From Elusimicrobia bacterium GWA2_51_34 (GTDB taxonomy: Bacteria > Elusimicrobiota > Elusimicrobia > Elusimicrobiales > UBA9959): DNA of 64,000 nucleotides. Location: NCBI GenBank assembly GCA_001799565.1, contig MGTS01000021.1:95984-159983 (forward strand), read 5' to 3'. Every line of letters begins with the position of its first letter. Within the stretch, counting starts at the first letter, position 1. The notes beneath the pieces were generated by a model. The model was not told the DNA's origin. It worked only from the letters and a program-made list of their open reading frames with translations, and did not search any database. The position numbers were made by a program, and so were the translations under genes. Shown piece after piece: positions 1,868 through 62,990 of the stretch.

Positions 1868-2773
1868 ATGACGGAAGAAATAAGCGGTCTTTTTTCGGTG
1901 CTGGCGGCGGAAGAAAGGCTGCCGGATTTTGCCCTTACGGCCAGAATACTTTCAGAATTCAACTCCCTGAACTCTGATGACGCCGGACGGCTGGCCAGGC
2001 ATTGCTGGGGTTTTATGGGTTCAAACCTGGCGCCCGGCAGCGCGCGTGAACTGGCCTGTAAATGCGAAGCTTACGGCGTTAAAACAATAATCCTGCCTTC
2101 AGCCGGATTAGCCGGACTTAAACCCGCGGCCTTTATAAAAAAAGCGGCTTTTGTAAACGACACCTTAAACTACACCGACGGCACGGGCCTTAGCATGAAC
2201 GCGTCAGCCGCGGATGTGCTGGTTTTATCCGCGGCGCCCCTCAAAGAAGATACGGTTAAAATTGTGAAGTCGGTTGAGGGGCCCTCCGCAGGAGCGAAAG
2301 CGCTGCGGTTGGGCATAATGGCCGCAACCGGCCTGCCCATCGGCCTGGGCAAAAACAAGGAAGTAAAAAAAGAGGTGAGAACTTCGGAGACCGCCTTCAC
2401 CCTGGATATAATTTTAAAACAGGCCGACAACTGTCCCGCCCTTTTGGCCCCAGAACGGAAGAGCTGGAAGCCGGACATAAACCTAAAGCCCGGGTTGGCG
2501 AACCAAAAGGGCGGGACCCGCCTGCGCCTGAACCCGGCGGCTTTTGATTTTTCCTGCCTGAAAGAGAAAAAAACATATTCCAGCCAGATGAACTTCTGCC
2601 TGATATGCGCCGCACTCTCCTCATTCGCCCATAAGGCGCTTAAAAACACCGGCCTTTGGGCCATACTTGAGCATAAGTCCCTTGCCGCCCTGCCTTACGA
2701 CGGGATGGAAGATTTTGAAAAAGAAACTTCGCGTTTAAATACGCTGGCTCCGCTCTTTTTTCAGCGCCCTTGA
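1868..2773 (+). CDS. Uncharacterised 301-residue protein
   Basis: I do not recognise this protein. The ATG at 1868 is preceded by an AGGAATAAG-like ribosome site; upstream codons of the frame look like spacer. It is soluble, without signal peptide or membrane segment. Several Cys are present but no clear metal motif. An 85-nt P1 palindrome (2433-2517) lies in frame in the coding region, adding roughly 28 residues, and the last codons plus stop lie in the degenerate left arm of a 52-nt P1 copy (2747-2798). It precedes arfB on the same strand by about 50 bases. The C-terminus may therefore have been remodelled by repeat insertion. Confidence 0.7.
   Translation: MTEEISGLFSVLAAEERLPDFALTARILSEFNSLNSDDAGRLARHCWGFMGSNLAPGSARELACKCEAYGVKTIILPSAGLAGLKPAAFIKKAAFVNDTLNYTDGTGLSMNASAADVLVLSAAPLKEDTVKIVKSVEGPSAGAKALRLGIMAATGLPIGLGKNKEVKKEVRTSETAFTLDIILKQADNCPALLAPERKSWKPDINLKPGLANQKGGTRLRLNPAAFDFSCLKEKKTYSSQMNFCLICAALSSFAHKALKNTGLWAILEHKSLAALPYDGMEDFEKETSRLNTLAPLFFQRP
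2433..2517. repeat. P1 palindromic element, 85-nt form, inside a coding region
   Basis: Inverted ends GTCCCGCCCTTTTGG and CCAAAAGGGCGGGAC bound an 85-nt segment lying wholly inside the uncharacterised gene at 1868-2773 without breaking its frame. Another segment of exactly 85 nt with nearly the same ends is found at 49579-49663, also inside a gene. The interiors are only loosely alike. Confidence 0.75.
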
Positions 2774-2798
2774 AAAGCATCGGGCAAAAGGGCGGGGC
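2747..2798 (+). repeat. P1 palindromic element, 52-nt form (one arm degenerate)
   Basis: The right part (2776-2798, AGCATCGGGCAAAAGGGCGG and on) is identical to the right half of the copy at 7017-7068. The left arm is diverged (GCTCCGCTCTTTTTT) and overlaps the last codons and stop of the preceding gene. Total length is 52 nt, as for the other two copies. Confidence 0.7.
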
Positions 2799-6986: not shown

Positions 6987-7019
6987 GTCGCGGACAGTCC
7001 GCCCAAGACGGAACAGGCC
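6987..7019 (+). repeat. P2-related 33-nt repeat
   Basis: This 33-nt segment (begins GTCGCGGACAGTCCGCC, ends GGAACAGGCC) matches 27496-27528 inside bamA with three differences. It abuts and slightly overlaps the P1 palindrome at 7017. Confidence 0.8.
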
Positions 7020-7068
7020 CCGCCCTTTTGCCAACAGCGTTAAACAGCATCGGGCAAAAGGGCGGGGC
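7017..7068 (+). repeat. P1 palindromic element, 52 nt
   Basis: Ends GCCCCGCCCTTTTGCC and GGGCAAAAGGGCGGGGC form a long hairpin. The reverse complement equals the copy at 51170-51221 with one mismatch in 52. It lies in the leader of the DUF350 gene. Confidence 0.9.
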
Positions 7069-9375: not shown

Positions 9376-9400
9376 AAATTCTCCTTGGAAAGGGCCAACT

Positions 9401-9434
9401 ATTATAGTATTGGGTATAGCCTTGTCCCTGTCAA
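9401..9434 (-). promoter_or_regulatory. Promoter of the C11 protease gene
   Basis: On the minus strand a consensus -35 TTGACA (9429-9434) is followed after 17 bases by AATACT (9406-9411), overlapping a TATAAT (9401-9406; spacing 22). Either could be the -10. The -35 context CCTTGACA is the same as at the paralogue's promoter (51241-51268). Confidence 0.6.
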
Positions 9435-9561
9435 GGCCTTAAGTGCCCGAATTGCGCTGGGCCCAAAGGCCTACCATGTCAGAACTGGAACAAAAAAACC
9501 GGGAAACGGGATTCAGTCCGCTATTTGCATAAAACCCCGTGTATTATCTAAAATTCATGAA

Positions 9562-11364
9562 ATGAACGCTCTTACGCTGCTTGTAACAGCCCTGCTTGTT
9601 TACGCCCTGGCCTACCGCTTTTACGCCAGCTTCATAATAGCGAAAGTTCTGGCCTTTGACCCGGACAGACCCACTCCGGCCCACACGCTGGAAAACGGTT
9701 ACGACTACAAACCCACTAACCGCTGGGTGCTTTTCGGACACCACTTCGCCGCCATAGCCGGCGCGGGCCCCCTTGTGGGCCCGGTGCTGGCCGCGCAGTT
9801 CGGATACCTGCCGGGTTTTTTATGGATCTTAATAGGCAGCGTTCTGGCCGGTGGCGTGCACGACATGGTTATACTTTTCGCCTCGGTGCGCTACAACGGA
9901 CTTTCACTTACGGAAATAGCCCGACGGGAAACAGGCAAAACCGCCGGCTGGGCCACTACAGCCGCCGTACTGTTCATAATAATAACCGCCTTGGCCGGGC
10001 TCTCCATGGTGGTAGTGAACGCTCTGGCGGAAAGTTCCTGGGGAACATTTTCCATCGCCATGACCATTCCTATAGCTGTTTTTGTGGGTTGGTACATGAA
10101 CAAGGCCCGGCCGGGAAAAATAACAGAGGCTTCAGTTATCGGCGTAACACTGGTTGTGGCGGCCATAGTACTGGGCGAACCGCTTTCACGTTCAGGCTGG
10201 GCACATTACTTCCTTTACTCTAAAACAAGCCTTTCAATTATACTCGCCGTTTACGGCATGCTTGCCTCTATTTTGCCGGTCTGGCTGCTGCTTACGCCGC
10301 GGGACTACCTGAGTTCCTACATGAAAATAGGCACCATAGGTCTGCTGGCTCTTGGGATATTATGGGTACGGCCTGAAATCGCCGCGCCGGCATTTACCAG
10401 CTTTATTCACGGCGGAGGCCCCATAATACCGGGCCATGTCTGGCCTTATGTCTGCATCACCGTCGCCTGCGGCGCTATTTCGGGCTTCCACAGCCTTATA
10501 AGTTCCGGCACCACCCCGAAGATGATAGCGAGTGAGCGGGACCTGCGGCTTATCGGCTACGGCGCTATGCTCACCGAAGGCTTTGTTTCCATAATGGCCC
10601 TGATAGCGGCCACGGTACTCCTGCCCGGCGACTATTTCGCCATCAATGTTCCACCCGAGGTTTTTCAGAAACTGGGGCTTAGCGTTTCACACCTGCCCGA
10701 TATGGCAATAGCCGTAGGAGAACATTTGGAGGGGCGCGCGGGCGGCGCGGTATCGCTCGCAGTGGGAATGGCGCAGATCTTCACCGCGATGCCGGGCATG
10801 AAAAGCCTGCTTTCCTACTGGTACCACTTCGCCATCATGTTTGAAGCGCTCTTCATACTGACCACCATAGACGCGGGCACCAGGGTGGCGCGCTACATCA
10901 CACAGGAAGTGTTTGGAAAGGTTTACGCGCCTTTCGCGAGAACTGACTGGTGGCCGGGGGTTTTTTTGACAAGTTTCCTGGTCTGCGCGGCATGGGGCGG
11001 CATGCTGATGGCCGGCAATATCAGCACGATCTGGCCGATGTTCGGGGTGGCGAACCAGCTGCTTTCCGCCATAGCGCTGGCCGTAGGAACGACCTTCATA
11101 CTCAAAAGGACTAAAGCCGTATACGCTTTAGTAACTTTTGTCCCGTTTCTTTTCATGCTGGCCACAACAGTCAGCGCGGGCATAATGAACATCACGGGCA
11201 ACTACCTCCCCCGTCACGATTTTCAGGGCTGGCTGAACGTGACTCTTACGGCAATCATGCTGGCGCTGGCCGCAGTGATAACAGTGGAATCTGTAAAAAG
11301 CTGGCTGACTGCGCTTGGACTACGGCATACAGTAACCAGTAAACCGGTAACCGGTAATCAGTAG
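9562..11364 (+). CDS. cstA: CstA-family peptide/pyruvate transporter
   Basis: 600 residues, about 15 predicted membrane segments. Diagnostic stretches include [20 protein letters not shown] and the [14 protein letters not shown] region, both typical of carbon-starvation protein CstA, plus SGTTPKM and [13 protein letters not shown]. CstA proteins import pyruvate or peptides under carbon limitation. This is shorter than E. coli CstA (about 700 residues), as in many clostridial-type members. The ATG at 9562 starts the first membrane helix; the extended frame upstream is not credible. TATTAT lies 13 bases before it. Confidence 0.92.
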
Positions 11365-22984: not shown

Positions 22985-23185
22985 TTCGCCTTCCTCCTCC
23001 TCTTACTCGTATAACTCACACAGGCCGTCACCCCGCTATAGTTATTCGAAACACAAGCTTGACGTCAATTACCCGCGTTTTCATCTCAATATATTTTGTG
23101 AATTTTAACCATGTACAGTCTAATATAAAAAATTGGACCTTTCAAGGCGCATGCCCGGCGTGTGCCAGGCATATCACATATAACA

Positions 23186-23276
23186 GGTTACCGGTTACCG
23201 GTTACTGGTTACTGGTTACTGGTTACTGGTTACTGGTTACTGGTTACTGGTTACTGGTTACTGGTTACCGGTCACT
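23186..23276. repeat. Tandem heptamer array, 13 units of GGTTACT/GGTTACC
   Basis: Thirteen contiguous 7-bp units, mostly GGTTACT, the outer ones GGTTACC and the last GGTCACT. It directly abuts and slightly overlaps the 3' end of the hydrolase gene. No spacer sequences are present, so it is not a CRISPR array. The rest of 22985-23185 holds no supported gene. Confidence 0.95.
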
Positions 23277-24101
23277 GAGCGCCGCTTCGGCCTTCACTTT
23301 CCACTTCATACCCGCTGTCTCTTCCATCAAAGTCGCTCCTGCTCCGGAGAACATATTCACCCCGTGCCCTGAAACGCCCTGCCGGAAAGTGATTTTTCCG
23401 CCATCGTCGGACCCCCCGGGCTCTTTGGCGGGAAGCTTTTGGGCATTGGCCGCCTCAAAAAGACGCAGGGAACTTTGCCAGGCGTAAGAATCGTCAGGAG
23501 AGGCAGCCAAAAGCAGAGCGAAAGGCAGCGAACGATGAAAATACTCCTCAATGCCTACGCCTGCGTAAACAAGCCCCGGAGAAAGCATTATTACCGCGGC
23601 CGGCTTAAGTGAATAGTCAACCGCCGCTTTTAAAACCAGATTCGCCCCCACGCTGGCTCCGCAAAGCACGATATTTGAGGCCGGAATCTTTCTTTTTTTC
23701 AGCCAGGAAACAGCGGCTACAATGTCTTTGGCGGCCGCGTTCCAGTCCCCCGCGCCAAAAGTCCTGTAATCCGTTTTTTTACCCGCGCACTCAAGGCTTT
23801 GGCCGTGTCCCCGCAGGTCAAGCGTCAGCCAGCCCAAACCCCGCGTCTTAAGCAGTTTTTCAAACGGGCCCCATTCGCCTTTACCCGATCCCAAGCCGTG
23901 AACATTTATAAAAACAGGGTTCCCTTTGGCGGGCGCCCCGTAAGAGGCCGCTATAAGGCATCCGTCCGCGGTTTTCAAAAGGATATTCTCAGTCGCGGAC
24001 AACGCCAGAGGCCCGCGTCCGCCTGAGGCGGACAGTGTCTCCGCCGCGCTCAAAAATCCGAACGGAAGAAGGAGTAAAATATGGAAAATTATTATTTTCA
24101 T
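23265..24101 (-). CDS. Exported alpha/beta hydrolase
   Basis: 278 residues with a signal peptide (MKIIIFHILLLLPFGFLSAA). Fold landmarks: INVHGLGSGKGEW (oxyanion region), LDLRGHGQS and the nucleophile elbow CGASVGAN; the late GHGVNMF is the probable catalytic His. The substrate cannot be predicted. Residues about 21-37, right after the signal peptide, are encoded by a 50-nt P2 element read in antisense (SASGGRGPLALSAT). The last codons and the stop lie in the heptamer array. The ATG at 24101 is chosen because it starts the signal peptide. Confidence 0.85.
   Translation of the reverse strand: MKIIIFHILLLLPFGFLSAAETLSASGGRGPLALSATENILLKTADGCLIAASYGAPAKGNPVFINVHGLGSGKGEWGPFEKLLKTRGLGWLTLDLRGHGQSLECAGKKTDYRTFGAGDWNAAAKDIVAAVSWLKKRKIPASNIVLCGASVGANLVLKAAVDYSLKPAAVIMLSPGLVYAGVGIEEYFHRSLPFALLLAASPDDSYAWQSSLRLFEAANAQKLPAKEPGGSDDGGKITFRQGVSGHGVNMFSGAGATLMEETAGMKWKVKAEAALSDR
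23992..24041 (+). repeat. P2 element (50 nt) in the hydrolase gene, antisense to it
   Basis: This segment matches 30361-30410 at 47 of 50 positions. It contains the palindrome GTCCGCCTGAGGCGGAC. It sits in frame just after the signal-peptide codons. Confidence 0.9.
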
Positions 24102-38426: not shown

Positions 38427-38640
38427 CGCGCAAGGCGCGCTGTCACAAGTTTCAAGTCACAAGTCTCAAGCGGAAAGTTATGCGGGCGCCGGCAGCAAAT
38501 AACGATTAAGCGTGAATTACAGGTAGCGGGCAGAGATCAGTTTTACGACTCTAGATTTTTTATAGTTGTAAGCAGCCTGAGCCCTGTCACCTGCCGCCTC
38601 TTACTTGTGACCTGTGACTTGTGCTCTTGTGACTTGCCAA
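38427..38640. repeat. P4 word palindrome (CACAAGTC words) with GCGCGC hairpin
   Basis: Starts with the mini-hairpin AGCGCGCAAGGCGCGCT right after the stop codon. Left arm CACAAGTTTCAAGTCACAAG, right arm TTGTGACCTGTGACTTGTGC and following, with about 120 bases between. It ends two bases before the lpxB ATG. Confidence 0.85.
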
Positions 38641-42561: not shown

Positions 42562-42780
42562 GCGCAAAGCGCGCTGTTACAAGAGCACAAGTCACAGGAG
42601 CACAGGTCACAAGCAAGAGGAGAAAGAAGACGCAAGAACGCGGGCACATAAATTCAGAAACAGATAACAGACGTGTGACGCAGTTGAAAGAGAATTGTGA
42701 CTTGTGTCCCTGCGCTCTTGTGATCTATTCCCTCTGACTTGTGCTCCTGTGACCTGTGTTCTTGTGCTCCTGCAACTTAC
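42562..42780. repeat. P4 word palindrome (CACAGGTCACAAG words) with GCGCGC hairpin
   Basis: Opens with GCGCGCAAAGCGCGC after the stop. Left arm ACAAGAGCACAAGTCACAGG and following; right arm GACTTGTGCTCCTGTGACC and following. Same vocabulary as 38427-38640. The arms are about 45 nt each. Confidence 0.85.
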
Positions 42781-51090: not shown

Positions 51091-51169
51091 AAAGATATTC
51101 TTGCGGATAGATTGACCTTTATCAAAGGTCCTAAGCCCCATAGCTTAATAGGCCTTTAGGCCTATGCTC

Positions 51170-51221
51170 GCCCCGCCCTTTTGCCCGATGCTGTTTAACT
51201 CTGTTGGCAAAAGGGCGGGGC
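51170..51221 (-). repeat. P1 palindromic element, 52 nt
   Basis: The reverse complement of 7017-7068 with a single mismatch. It lies in the leader of the C11 operon, between promoter and start. Just next to it, 51134-51168 has TAATAGGCCTTTAGGCCTA-like words of the P4 kind. Confidence 0.92.
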
Positions 51222-51240
51222 CCGCGGTCATAGTATCAAT

Positions 51241-57300: not shown

Positions 57301-60300
57301 TTAAACGCTGAAATACACGGCTTTGGGGTTGTGAAAAACTATGGCGGATACCGAGGCCTCGGGGTCCATCATGAAACCTTCCGTAAGGCGAAGCCCCGCG
57401 TCAGCCTCGGGCTTCAGCAGATCAAAAAGTATTTTCTGGTTAGCCAGGTCAGGGCAGGCGGGGCAGCCGAAAGAATACCTCTTGCCCCTGTACTTGCTGC
57501 GCAGCGGCGGTCTGACCGGGCCCGCCCCGGCTATGCCCCAGGCCTGACGCAGCCGGTAATGCATAACCTCGGCGAAAGCCTCGGCAAGCGTTAGCGCCAG
57601 TGCCTCCGCCATATAGGACTTCACGTAATTGCCGGCCTCGCGTTCCCGCTTCGCGTAAGCAAGCACACCTTCCCCGCAGGTAACGGCAAAAAGCGCGGCG
57701 TAGTCCTTAACCCCGCCCGAAACCGGCGCCGCGAAATCAGCCAGACAAAGCCTGTCGCCCGCCGTCCGCCTTGGAAAAGCAAAAGAAGCCATCCGCGTTC
57801 CCGCCTTGTCGTAAAACAACAGATCGTCGCCGGAACTGTTCACGGGAAAAAACTGATAAACGCCCCTGGCTTTTATCAACCGGCTGCCTATTACCTCTTT
57901 CTTCATAGCGGCCAGAAGCCGGGCGGCTTCGGCTGCCTTTTCGGGCCGGGCTTTGTTCAATTTAAGGAAGCGCAGATTAAACAATCCTTCATCCAGATTC
58001 TCAAAAAGTTCTTCCAACGCCTGCTCACCGGTAAAATGCCGCTCCAGATCCGCTGGCACAGGAATATCGGCAGGGTAGTAGCCGAAGTTTGGAGTTGGGA
58101 GTTTGGAGTTTAGCTGGCCGCACGAAGATTCATTCTCCATCCTTGAACCCCGTACATCATGCGCCTTTTTCCCCAACTCTAAACTCTTAACTCCGATCTC
58201 TAACGCGTAATTAAGTCCGCTCATGGCGTCCTGGGCGTAAAATACCTTGCCCTTATAAACCGGCGCTATATTGTTTTCCGTATACTTCAAGGTTAAAGCG
58301 GCCCCCCCCGCAAGCAGAGGGCAGCTTACTCCGGCGGAGGATAGTTCGCGCGCGGTTACAGCCATCTGCTCGGTGGAGCGCACAAGCAGCCCGGAGAGCC
58401 CTATAAAGTCGGGCTTTTCCTTCAGCGCCGCTTCAACAATGGTTTCCGAGGACACCTTTACACCCAGGTCCACCACCTCAAAGCCGTTGGATTCAAAAAT
58501 GATATTTACCAGGTTTTTTCCGATGTCGTGAACATCGCCCTTAACGGTGGCAAGAAGCAATTTCCCGCGCTTGGGCGCTTTAGCCGCTTTCAGCGCGCCC
58601 TCCATTACAGCTACGGCTTTTTTGGTAACCTCGGCGCTTTGCAAAACCTCGGTAACTATAAGCTCGCCGGCCGCGAATTTTCTGCCTACTTCCCCCATGG
58701 CTTTCAGCACCGGGCCGTTTATTATTTCAAGCGGCCCGTATTTAAGAAGCAGTTTGTTTACAATTTCCTCCACGCCGTCTTTTGACCCGTCGTTTATTTT
58801 GGCCGCAAGAGCCTCTTCCGGCGGCATGGCGGAGGTTTTATCTTCAGTAAGAACTGTTTTTTTAACGTCCCTGAAATATTCGGCGAAAGCGGAGGCGGCG
58901 TCCGCTTTTCTAGCGAATATCAGATCTTCGGCCAGAGCTTTCTCATTTTGCGCCATGGAAGAGTATCTTTTAAGTTTCCCTATATTTACTATCGCCACGC
59001 CAAGCCCCGCGCGCGCCAGATGGTGAAGAAAAACCGAATTAAGTATTTCGCGGCCGGCCGGGGGCAAGCCGAATGAAACATTGCTCACACCGAGCGCGGT
59101 TTTTGTTTTAGGGAAACGCTTCCCTATTTCCGCCACGGCCTTTATGGTTTCTTCAGCCGTAGCGGCATACTCGGGGCCCACTCCCACCGGAAACACCAGC
59201 GGATCGAAAATTATGTCTTCTTCCGGCAGGCCGCAGACCCCGGTTAAAAACTTATAAGCGCGCTCCGCTATGGCGGTTTTGCGCTCCGCCGTACGGGCCA
59301 TGCCCTCCTGCTTATTCTCGTCTATACAGCCGAACACCAGTTTCGCGCCGTAGGTTTTACAAAGCTCCGCCGCCTGGCGGGGCTTATCTTCGCCGAATTC
59401 AAAATTCACCGAATTCAGTATTATCTTGCCGGGCGCGTATTTCAAAACTTCTTCCATAGCCTTAATATCGGTGGTATCTATCATAAGCGGCACACGCACC
59501 GCTTTCACCAGCATGGGAATAAAAGTTTTTATGTCTTCCAACTCGCTGCGTTCGGGGTTTGAAAGGCACACGTCCAGCACGTGCGCCCCGGCCTTAACCT
59601 GGGTTCTGGCCATTTCAACAGCTTCATCCCAGCGCCCGGCCGCGGCTATGTCGCGGAATTTTTTTGAGCCGATGGAATTATTCCGTTCGCCCGCCATCAC
59701 AGGCGGTTCCATGTCCTCATAATAAAGCGCCTCAACTCCGGACAAAGTCCACGGGCGGTCCCCTCGGCGCGCGCCCGGTTTAACGCCGTTAAGAGCCGCG
59801 CTTAAAGCCTTTATATGCCCCGGCAGCGTGCCGCAGCAGCCGCCCGCGATATTAAGCCAGCCCTTTTTTGCGAACTCGCACATTAAAGCGGCAAAATTTT
59901 CCGGCGTCTGGGTATAGCGGCCATTCTCGTCAGGCAGACCGGCATTGGGCATGCAGAATATGGGAAATGGCGACACTTTAGACAGCGCTTCCAGGCGCGT
60001 GCCCATATTTTTAGGGCCCGTACCGCAGTTAAAGCCCAAAGCTGAAAGCGGGAAATGGCTTAAAGCCGAATAAACAGCCTCGGCATTGTGGCCGGTCAGC
60101 ATGGAACCGAGTGAATCCATGGTGACAGAGGCTATAACCGGCACGCCGCCCGTGCCGCCGCCAAACGCCTGGCGCGCGGCGGCAAGCCCCGCTTTCAGAT
60201 TTATTATGTCATGGGCGGTTTCAAAAAGCAGGATATCCACCCCGGCATGAAGCAGAGCGTTCACCTGTTCAAGATAAAGCGAGCGCATCTGGTCAAAGGA

Positions 60301-62825: not shown

Positions 62826-62990
62826 CAGGCGGGCAGGCTGTAGGCGGGTAGCAACGGAAAGTAAAAGAAAGCGGCTGAAAGCCACAGAAAGTAAGAGGGC
62901 CTCATAAAAACTGTTTTCTTGCTTTCAGTTGCTTTCTGCAGCATTCAATAGCCTTCCGTTGCCATAAGTGATAACCGCCTGCCGCCTAAA
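62826..62990. repeat. P4 word palindrome (GGAAAGTAAAAG words)
   Basis: Left arm GGCGGGCAGGCTGTAGGCG, GCAACGGAAAGT, GGCTGAAAGCC; right arm GCTTTCAGTTGCTTTC, CCTTCCGTTGCC and ACCGCCTGCCGCC in inverse order. It separates the divergent prfB and chorismate mutase genes. Confidence 0.8.

Follow-up and report, generated by a model that had tools for sequence, protein, structure and literature searches.

Rickettsia palindromic elements (RPEs) are selfish palindromic repeats of ~100-150 bp that occur in non-coding DNA and also in frame within rickettsial ORFs, which they leave undestroyed (PMC3767692). Their insertion hotspots are possibly common to several genera (PMC3767692). Heptameric repeats of Xanthomonas (GGGAATC) and of Nostoc/Calothrix are dispersed mainly between co-oriented ORFs (PMC4692102). 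They are scarce in coding and divergent regions, and some occur as inverted pairs (PMC4692102). Enterobacterial RU repeats/MITEs are small mobile sequences whose frames join annotated proteins (PMC2759123). Inverted repeats inside protein genes are known from Nematomorpha mitochondria, for which an origin by template switching has been discussed (PMC6649704). A search of the open literature, with subscription journals mostly outside its reach, found no description in Elusimicrobiota of arrays such as those reported here, which is weak evidence of novelty.

We analyzed a 64,000-nt stretch of DNA (the window; G000:C21:95984-159983) from the 2.63-Mb genome of a member of the Elusimicrobiales (G000). 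An earlier reading of the sequence alone had described a 121-nt "word palindrome" inserted in frame at a domain boundary of metH, the gene for cobalamin-dependent methionine synthase. We consider it quite probable that this element is one of many dispersed heptamer-word arrays of the intergenic type that entered the tolerant Linker IV of the enzyme, and we are far less confident of any particular mover of such arrays. The setting offers natural replicates, in that the same MetH linker is occupied, across about a dozen species, by non-coding words unrelated to one another, and the IleRS and ValRS loops of relatives supply true empty sites. From such sites the entry of repeats into proteins, the positions that tolerate them and the concerted evolution of words are testable. 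There is also a warning for annotation, since word tracts in such proteins are recent repeat DNA and not conserved peptide.

The metH element and its position in Linker IV

The 121-nt word element is real, and its arms, its period of 7 and its inverted symmetry were all confirmed (Table 1). The inverted repeat pairs TTGGAGTTGGGAGTTTGGAGTTTAG (58089-58113) with CTAAACTCTTAACTCCGATCTCTAA (58179-58203), that is, 25-nt arms that lie 65 nt apart and consist of the degenerate heptamers AGTTTGG / CCAAACT. The arms are inverted, as the term "word palindrome" implies, but at 80% complementarity they are degenerate and the palindrome is imperfect. Period 7 was also detected independently by TRF at 58086-58111. 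One open frame on the coding strand and one on the opposite strand cross the element, and the peptides encoded across the linker include SLELGK and MENESSCGQLNSK. The earlier residue numbers, about 829-869, apply when counting starts from the ATG four codons downstream; from the TTG start, the element encodes residues ~833-873.

Table 1. Coordinates of the metH element and of related features (window positions unless a contig or locus is named)
Feature	Position	Strand	Basis or description
metH, cobalamin-dependent methionine synthase, 1133 aa	57301..60702	-	ORF listing; uninterrupted across element
MetH Linker IV (B12 to activation domain), 123 nt / 41 residues	58084..58206	-	linker extraction and comparison; AlphaFold
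Element as a whole, 121 nt	58084-58204		in frame within metH
Purine-rich arm, AGTTTGG x ~3.7	58086..58113	+	TRF and inverted-repeat search
Loop between metH palindrome arms	58114..58178	.	DNA search of G000, G001, G002
Pyrimidine-rich arm CCAACTCTAAACTCTTAACTCCGATCTC	58173..58203	+	inverted-repeat search; array score 11 at lag 7
659-aa membrane protein	9385-11364; array 11321..11363	+	GTAACC words
Long GGTTACT heptamer array	23169..23298	.	words also in G000 IleRS and G002 MetH linker
Dispersed repeat TCAGTCGCGGACA(A/G)CGCCAGAGGCCCGCG	23987..24047	+	relative of G002 linker tandem repeat
Intergenic word palindrome, GTCACAA words	38442..38636	.	words also in G001 MetH linker and G000 ValRS
Intergenic word palindrome, CACAAG / AGCACA words	42579..42766	.	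inverted-repeat search, TRF, array scan
IleRS	G000:C33:52109-55018 (L244:12109-15018)	-	29-codon loop of GTTACCG words
ValRS C-terminal loop	L239:2322-5075 (G000:C37)	+	CACAAGT words
CDP-glucose 4,6-dehydratase	G000:C33:25105-26247 (L243:5105-6247)	-	AGTTTGG words as in metH
QueE-like radical SAM protein	L252:660-1550 (G000:C1)	-	CACAAGT words

MetH keeps all five domains expected of it, which Pfam places at residues 14-304 (S-methyl_trans), 339-573 (Pterin_bind), 629-700 (B12-binding_2), 714-811 (B12-binding) and 923-1133 (Met_synt_B12). The B12-binding domain ends at about 811-830 and the activation domain starts at about 875-923 (Pfam borders 811 and 923). By alignment to 8g3h and 8ssc, the site of the element corresponds to Linker IV (Cob:Act) of Thermus MetH, a segment described as flexible and left unmodelled for lack of density (PMC10567725). 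AlphaFold, run on 30 MetH sequences, placed residues 839-867 below a pLDDT of 50, and no other stretch of the protein scored so low over such a length. The position between the B12 and activation domains and the predicted flexibility are both those of Linker IV, and the location at a domain boundary proposed earlier is thus supported alike by Pfam borders, by alignment to solved MetH and by AlphaFold.

The lag-7 score of the 123-nt linker exceeded those of all 200 codon shuffles (p=0.005), as did its inverted-repeat score (p=0.005); the pattern is therefore not a product of peptide or codon make-up. Moreover, a 7-nt period is out of step with the 3-nt codon and so cannot arise from protein composition. 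An assembly artefact is an unlikely source of the element, since the genomes of relatives, which were assembled independently, have arrays at these codon positions too.

Outside the family, in other phyla and in other Elusimicrobia, the linker measures 120-150 nt (median 135 nt, 67 linkers); within the family, word-free linkers span 78-111 nt. Because the linker is equally long elsewhere, its sequence appears to have been replaced and not a segment added, and judged by these lengths the element overwrote a variable pre-existing linker with no net gain of 121 nt. The word "inserted" consequently fails for metH as a net event, as other phyla have 120-150 nt in the same place. Conservation of the element's residues in other phyla had been named as the observation that would speak against an insertion. 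The linker residues are conserved nowhere, but this was the wrong yardstick: the segment itself occurs universally, and the novelty here is confined to its sequence. The linkers of three same-genus species cannot be aligned, and at such divergence no target-site duplication is readable. A suggestion made by eye, that the loop is a relic of the old linker, was not retained, the same-genus alignment being too poor to support it.

Words in the MetH linkers of relatives and between genes

Arrays at lag 7 or 14 (p<=0.025 under codon shuffling) were found in 13 of the 21 fused linkers of the family and in 1 of 67 outside it (Fisher p=2e-9, an optimistic value given that the rows are related). The linker words differ even between sister species: GTCACAA in G001, AGGGTAT in G015, CAGTGTT and CGAGCCA in G010, GGAAATC in G019, GGTCACA in G007, CGCAAAT in G011, AGAGGTC in G006, CCCCGAC in G029 and GAGGGTA in G024. 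The G002 linker combines GTAACC words with two tandem copies (period 56) of a relative of a dispersed repeat. Words were absent from the MetH linkers of genera g12 and g13 and of the g11 member, and one of the two fused g4 linkers was marginally positive. The single palindromic unit seen by the sequence-only reading holds for G000, but most relatives' linkers contain direct arrays; only the G000 linker is clearly palindromic, and those of G011 and G029 are partly so. On a MetH tree built without the linker, the presence and absence of words needs two changes, so the capacity for words may be old. Rather than entering many times, words may have been acquired once, long ago, with later losses and a turnover of the words themselves.

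Most of the remaining g4 genomes carry metH as two ORFs, with the break exactly at the linker, and these split genes contain no words. As the outgroups have fused genes with a linker of the same length, the split g4 genes look derived. The same two facts led us to reject the idea of a fused-gene fossil, in which an intergenic palindrome was trapped at a fusion. Split metH also occurs in G017, the g4 split often shows overlapping or adjacent stop/start, and G023 has both fused and split copies.

The split at this very linker is one of two observations that would fit a function of the element in metH mRNA or DNA, as an inter-domain translation-pausing hairpin, an attenuator or the g4 fission point. 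The other is that the palindrome folds as RNA in G000, with a z of -1.8 (151 nt) or -2.8 (linker alone); as DNA, with its degenerate arms, it gives a z of -0.9. We nevertheless regard such a function as very improbable, since 8 of 10 word-bearing linkers have no significant RNA fold, most being direct arrays, and the split g4 genes lack words. The metH frame is open throughout, so that recoding is unneeded. A conserved RNA hairpin in metH mRNA was also considered and rejected, as z fell below -2 only in G000 and G011. No known RNA family matched at the metH site, and the sole match in the window was a tRNA.

Word arrays are not confined to MetH. A 450-kb portion of G000, 90% coding by rough ORF calls, contains 196 arrays of period 7, 8, 10, 14 or 15, of which 105 are wholly intergenic; lag-7 arrays number 91, against about 0 in shuffles. 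Relatives were sampled over 13 to 80 kb each, and the species are not independent. In nine linkers from genera g1, g3, g5, g6 and g9 (G000, G001, G002, G006, G007, G015, G019, G024 and G025), 7-50% of the 9-mers also occur in G000 intergenic arrays; codon shuffles of the same linkers reach 1-3% (p 0.003-0.017). The lowest shares, those of G019 and G025, are barely above the value of the best-matching other window of the same gene. Word-free MetH linkers showed no such 9-mer sharing with G000 intergenic arrays. The words of the G010 linker occur at 43 places in G010 and at 1-3 in each of three congeners, so this linker follows the vocabulary of its own genome. Those of the G006 linker occur at 17 places in G006, and the dispersed repeat of the G002 linker was matched at least 32 times in G002 and 41 times in G000. 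In G011, whose genome is fragmented, no further copy of the linker array exists, which suggests local growth in that case. Genomes whose MetH linkers contain words were also denser in arrays outside metH (p=0.012, small samples).

These counts also bear on the reading of the site as an ordinary hypervariable linker of low complexity, whose repeat would reflect amino-acid composition only. MetH linkers are indeed variable in all phyla and some are Ala/Pro-rich, but a period of 7 that survives codon shuffling so much more often in the family than elsewhere, and 9-mers shared with intergenic DNA, argue against composition alone, and we give this reading almost no credence.

Arrays in G000 have a strong polarity. 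Among those with an inverted partner within 180 nt, the purine-rich arm lies 5' and the pyrimidine-rich arm 3' in 128 of 136, and in 100 of 102 under a strict partner score, a palindrome being counted at most twice. The purine-first rule holds for the metH palindrome too, and the palindromes at window positions 62851-62962 and 42579-42766 are further examples. Such near-invariant polarity points to a common process that makes or keeps hairpins. Palindromes lie in 66 of the 250 gaps that crude ORF calls place between co-oriented genes, in 5 of 45 where the genes converge and in 7 of 42 where they diverge. Unrelated to the words is a family of GCCCCGCCCTTTTGCC hairpins at window positions 2746-2798, 7016-7068 and 51169-51222, with 16-bp perfect stems and, in two copies, 20-nt loops.

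We also considered a discrete mobile palindromic element (RPE-/MITE-like, moved by an HUH/RAYT or other transposase) that was inserted in metH as one unit. Its length of ~120 nt, its palindromy, its in-frame position and the presence of sequence related to its arms at about 30 places in G000 recall an RPE. Y1_Tnp/RAYT-like genes, six of them in G000, are common in the family and rare in the sister family, and genomes with more of them tend to have denser arrays (rho 0.58, p=0.019, 16 genomes, kinship uncorrected). A single-unit origin nonetheless seems rather unlikely. A DNA search of G000, G001 and G002 found no copy of the whole element or of the loop elsewhere: the only substantial matches were to the arms, and those to the loop (14-20 nt) were at chance level. 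The loop as a shared element core was thus rejected, and no family of alignable copies emerged. Relatives have direct arrays in this linker and not palindromes, and the element brought no net gain in length over other phyla. Nine RAYT-like genes examined in g1 have no word arrays within ~1.1 kb, except for one weak 10-nt array and for the metH linker, which adjoins a RAYT-like gene of G001; the repeats that flank several of these genes are of a different type, particular to them. A RAYT/Y1 transposase was therefore not adopted as the mover, given the weak density correlation and the essentially word-free surroundings. The G001 gene in question lies about 0.2 kb downstream of metH, and the short repeats that flank several of the RAYT-like Y1 genes of G000, G001 and G002 include AAAGGTAGCAGGTACCTTTT.

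In-frame arrays in other enzymes

A survey of ~849 kb of G000 recovered 381 arrays, 21 of which lie at least 200 nt inside called ORFs. One of these is IleRS. Nine relatives have an empty site of 24-27 nt (8-9 codons) there, among them the same-genus G002 with 8 codons, and filled sites of 63-120 nt occur in G000, G004, G010, G015 and G019, significantly periodic in all but G019. The inserts of G000, G015 and G004 share the tail HPGLPAG (GHPGLPAG in G000 and g3), so the inserts of G000 and g3 are at least partly homologous and not independent. At G001:C46:13321-14995 and G001:C63:1-2232, G001 seems to carry a broken native IleRS gene, in fragments 71-78% identical, along with another IleRS that has diverged further and may be a replacement.

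The C-terminal loop of ValRS measures 24-33 nt in most other genera and 81-129 nt in genus g1. Its words are CACAAGT in G000 and G001 and CAGAAGT in G002, a one-letter change in every unit between homologous flanks, which makes the loop a candidate case of concerted word evolution. CDP-glucose 4,6-dehydratase has 13 extra residues (NSKLQTRNSQL and neighbours) compared with the solved enzymes 1wvg and 1rkx. The QueE-like protein has about 42 extra residues directly after its CxxC motif relative to a distant structure, its sole reference, and this array is probably a net in-frame insertion. By comparison with empty sites in relatives (IleRS and ValRS) or with solved enzymes (CDP-glucose 4,6-dehydratase), the arrays of these three are true net in-frame insertions, and word arrays therefore do enter genes in frame. 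The earlier proposal that P4 word arrays are found inside genes, and not just in spacers, thus stands on these three enzymes, although metH was the gene that gave rise to it.

Repeat DNA also reaches protein ends. The GTAACC words of the 659-aa membrane protein encode its last 14 residues, so that its C-terminus is repeat DNA. An array of CACAGGAG words (G000:C29:18204-18254) within the gene C29:17423-18463 (minus strand) apparently encodes the hydrophobic core of a predicted signal peptide (ISCVPVLLCSCVLVLLCSLPVQA). A further in-frame array, in a 543-aa ORF (C42:113575-115206), apparently lies upstream of the real start of a lipoprotein and was not counted.

Origin of the arrays and comparison with known repeats

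The anatomy of the metH element, its location in the linker, the recurrence across species, the vocabulary shared with intergenic DNA and the net insertions in other genes are established, and we propose the following account of them. Heptamer-word arrays, often palindromes of a purine arm and a pyrimidine arm, populate the intergenic spacers of the Elusimicrobiales family. The unstructured Linker IV would tolerate any stop-free in-frame sequence, much as an intergenic spacer does, and given this tolerance word arrays would have come in and displaced most of the former linker sequence, with turnover of the words between species. The linker words would be drawn from the family-wide intergenic vocabulary and not from selection on the peptide, which may be a mere disordered tether, so that entry may be close to neutral for the enzyme. 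The same process would place words in surface loops of IleRS, ValRS, CDP-glucose dehydratase and probably QueE. Entry presumably occurred by insertion, followed by slippage and deletion, and the gain, loss and replacement of units would keep the MetH linker near its ordinary length.

Several observations count against this word-entry account. No full-length copy with the same loop, as expected of a transposed element, was found in G000, G001 or G002; the net length gain of the MetH linker over other phyla is almost nil; the G011 array is unique, the MetH tree fits one acquisition and the IleRS inserts are homologous. A rival explanation is de novo local growth, in which replication slippage and template switching within the linker (e.g. 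from GGAGTTAAG encoding GVK) build the array with no outside input. Array lengths vary between species at one site (MetH, IleRS and ValRS), the uniqueness of the G011 array in its genome fits growth in place, and the one-letter ValRS difference between sister species is as a concerted unit change would give. Template switching is, moreover, a known source of quasi-palindromes (discussed in PMC6649704). Local growth alone leaves unexplained the family-wide vocabulary in most linkers, the abundance of the G010 words in G010 against their rarity in congeners, and the dispersed 30-nt repeat of the G002 linker; we hold it to be possible but somewhat doubtful as the full explanation. A mixture of the proposed mechanisms is likely.

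It may tentatively be asked whether the arrays represent an undescribed kind of spreading DNA. Its degenerate 7/8/10-nt words would come from one common vocabulary and keep a strict purine-first polarity without any conserved element sequence; they would expand between genes, enter loops and linkers of essential enzymes in frame time and again, and turn over from species to species. We lean against so strong a claim at present. If true, it would add a third route from non-coding repeats to protein, beside the transposition of fixed elements and simple slippage.

Among described systems, RPEs (and likewise the Wolbachia WPE) resemble the metH element in that it measures 121 nt, is palindromic, lies in frame and leaves the ORF intact. 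RPE families are alignable, however, whereas the metH loop is unique and shares only degenerate 7-nt words, which belong to many word families. In addition, the metH element came without net insertion, the net insertions being those of the IleRS and ValRS arrays. As two defining features of RPEs, alignable copies and a net insertion, were thus not found in metH, we do not class it as an RPE. REP/RAYT systems differ in that the nine transposase genes of g1 are essentially not flanked by word arrays. RU repeats are units of 103-168 bp with a fixed sequence, whereas the word arrays have no fixed unit. The repeats of Nematomorpha are perfect and spread across mitochondrial genes, while the metH arms, with 80% complementarity, stay within a disordered linker. 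As for the site, the position of Linker IV is common to Thermus and G000, and the Elusimicrobiales family differs by its word-array sequence. The Xanthomonas and Nostoc repeats share more with the Elusimicrobiales arrays, which likewise have a 7-nt unit, are many, dispersed and mostly non-coding, and prefer co-oriented gaps. Those repeats consist of one dominant G-quadruplex-like word per genome, whereas the Elusimicrobiales arrays comprise many word families, are mostly purine-first hairpin pairs and include in-frame insertions in core enzymes. A G-tract (G-quadruplex) unit was looked for and not found, as most words, including AGTTTGG, CACAAGT and GTAACC, lack GGG. The closest repeats to the Elusimicrobiales arrays are thus the heptameric repeats of Xanthomonas and Nostoc, minus the G-tract and plus many words.
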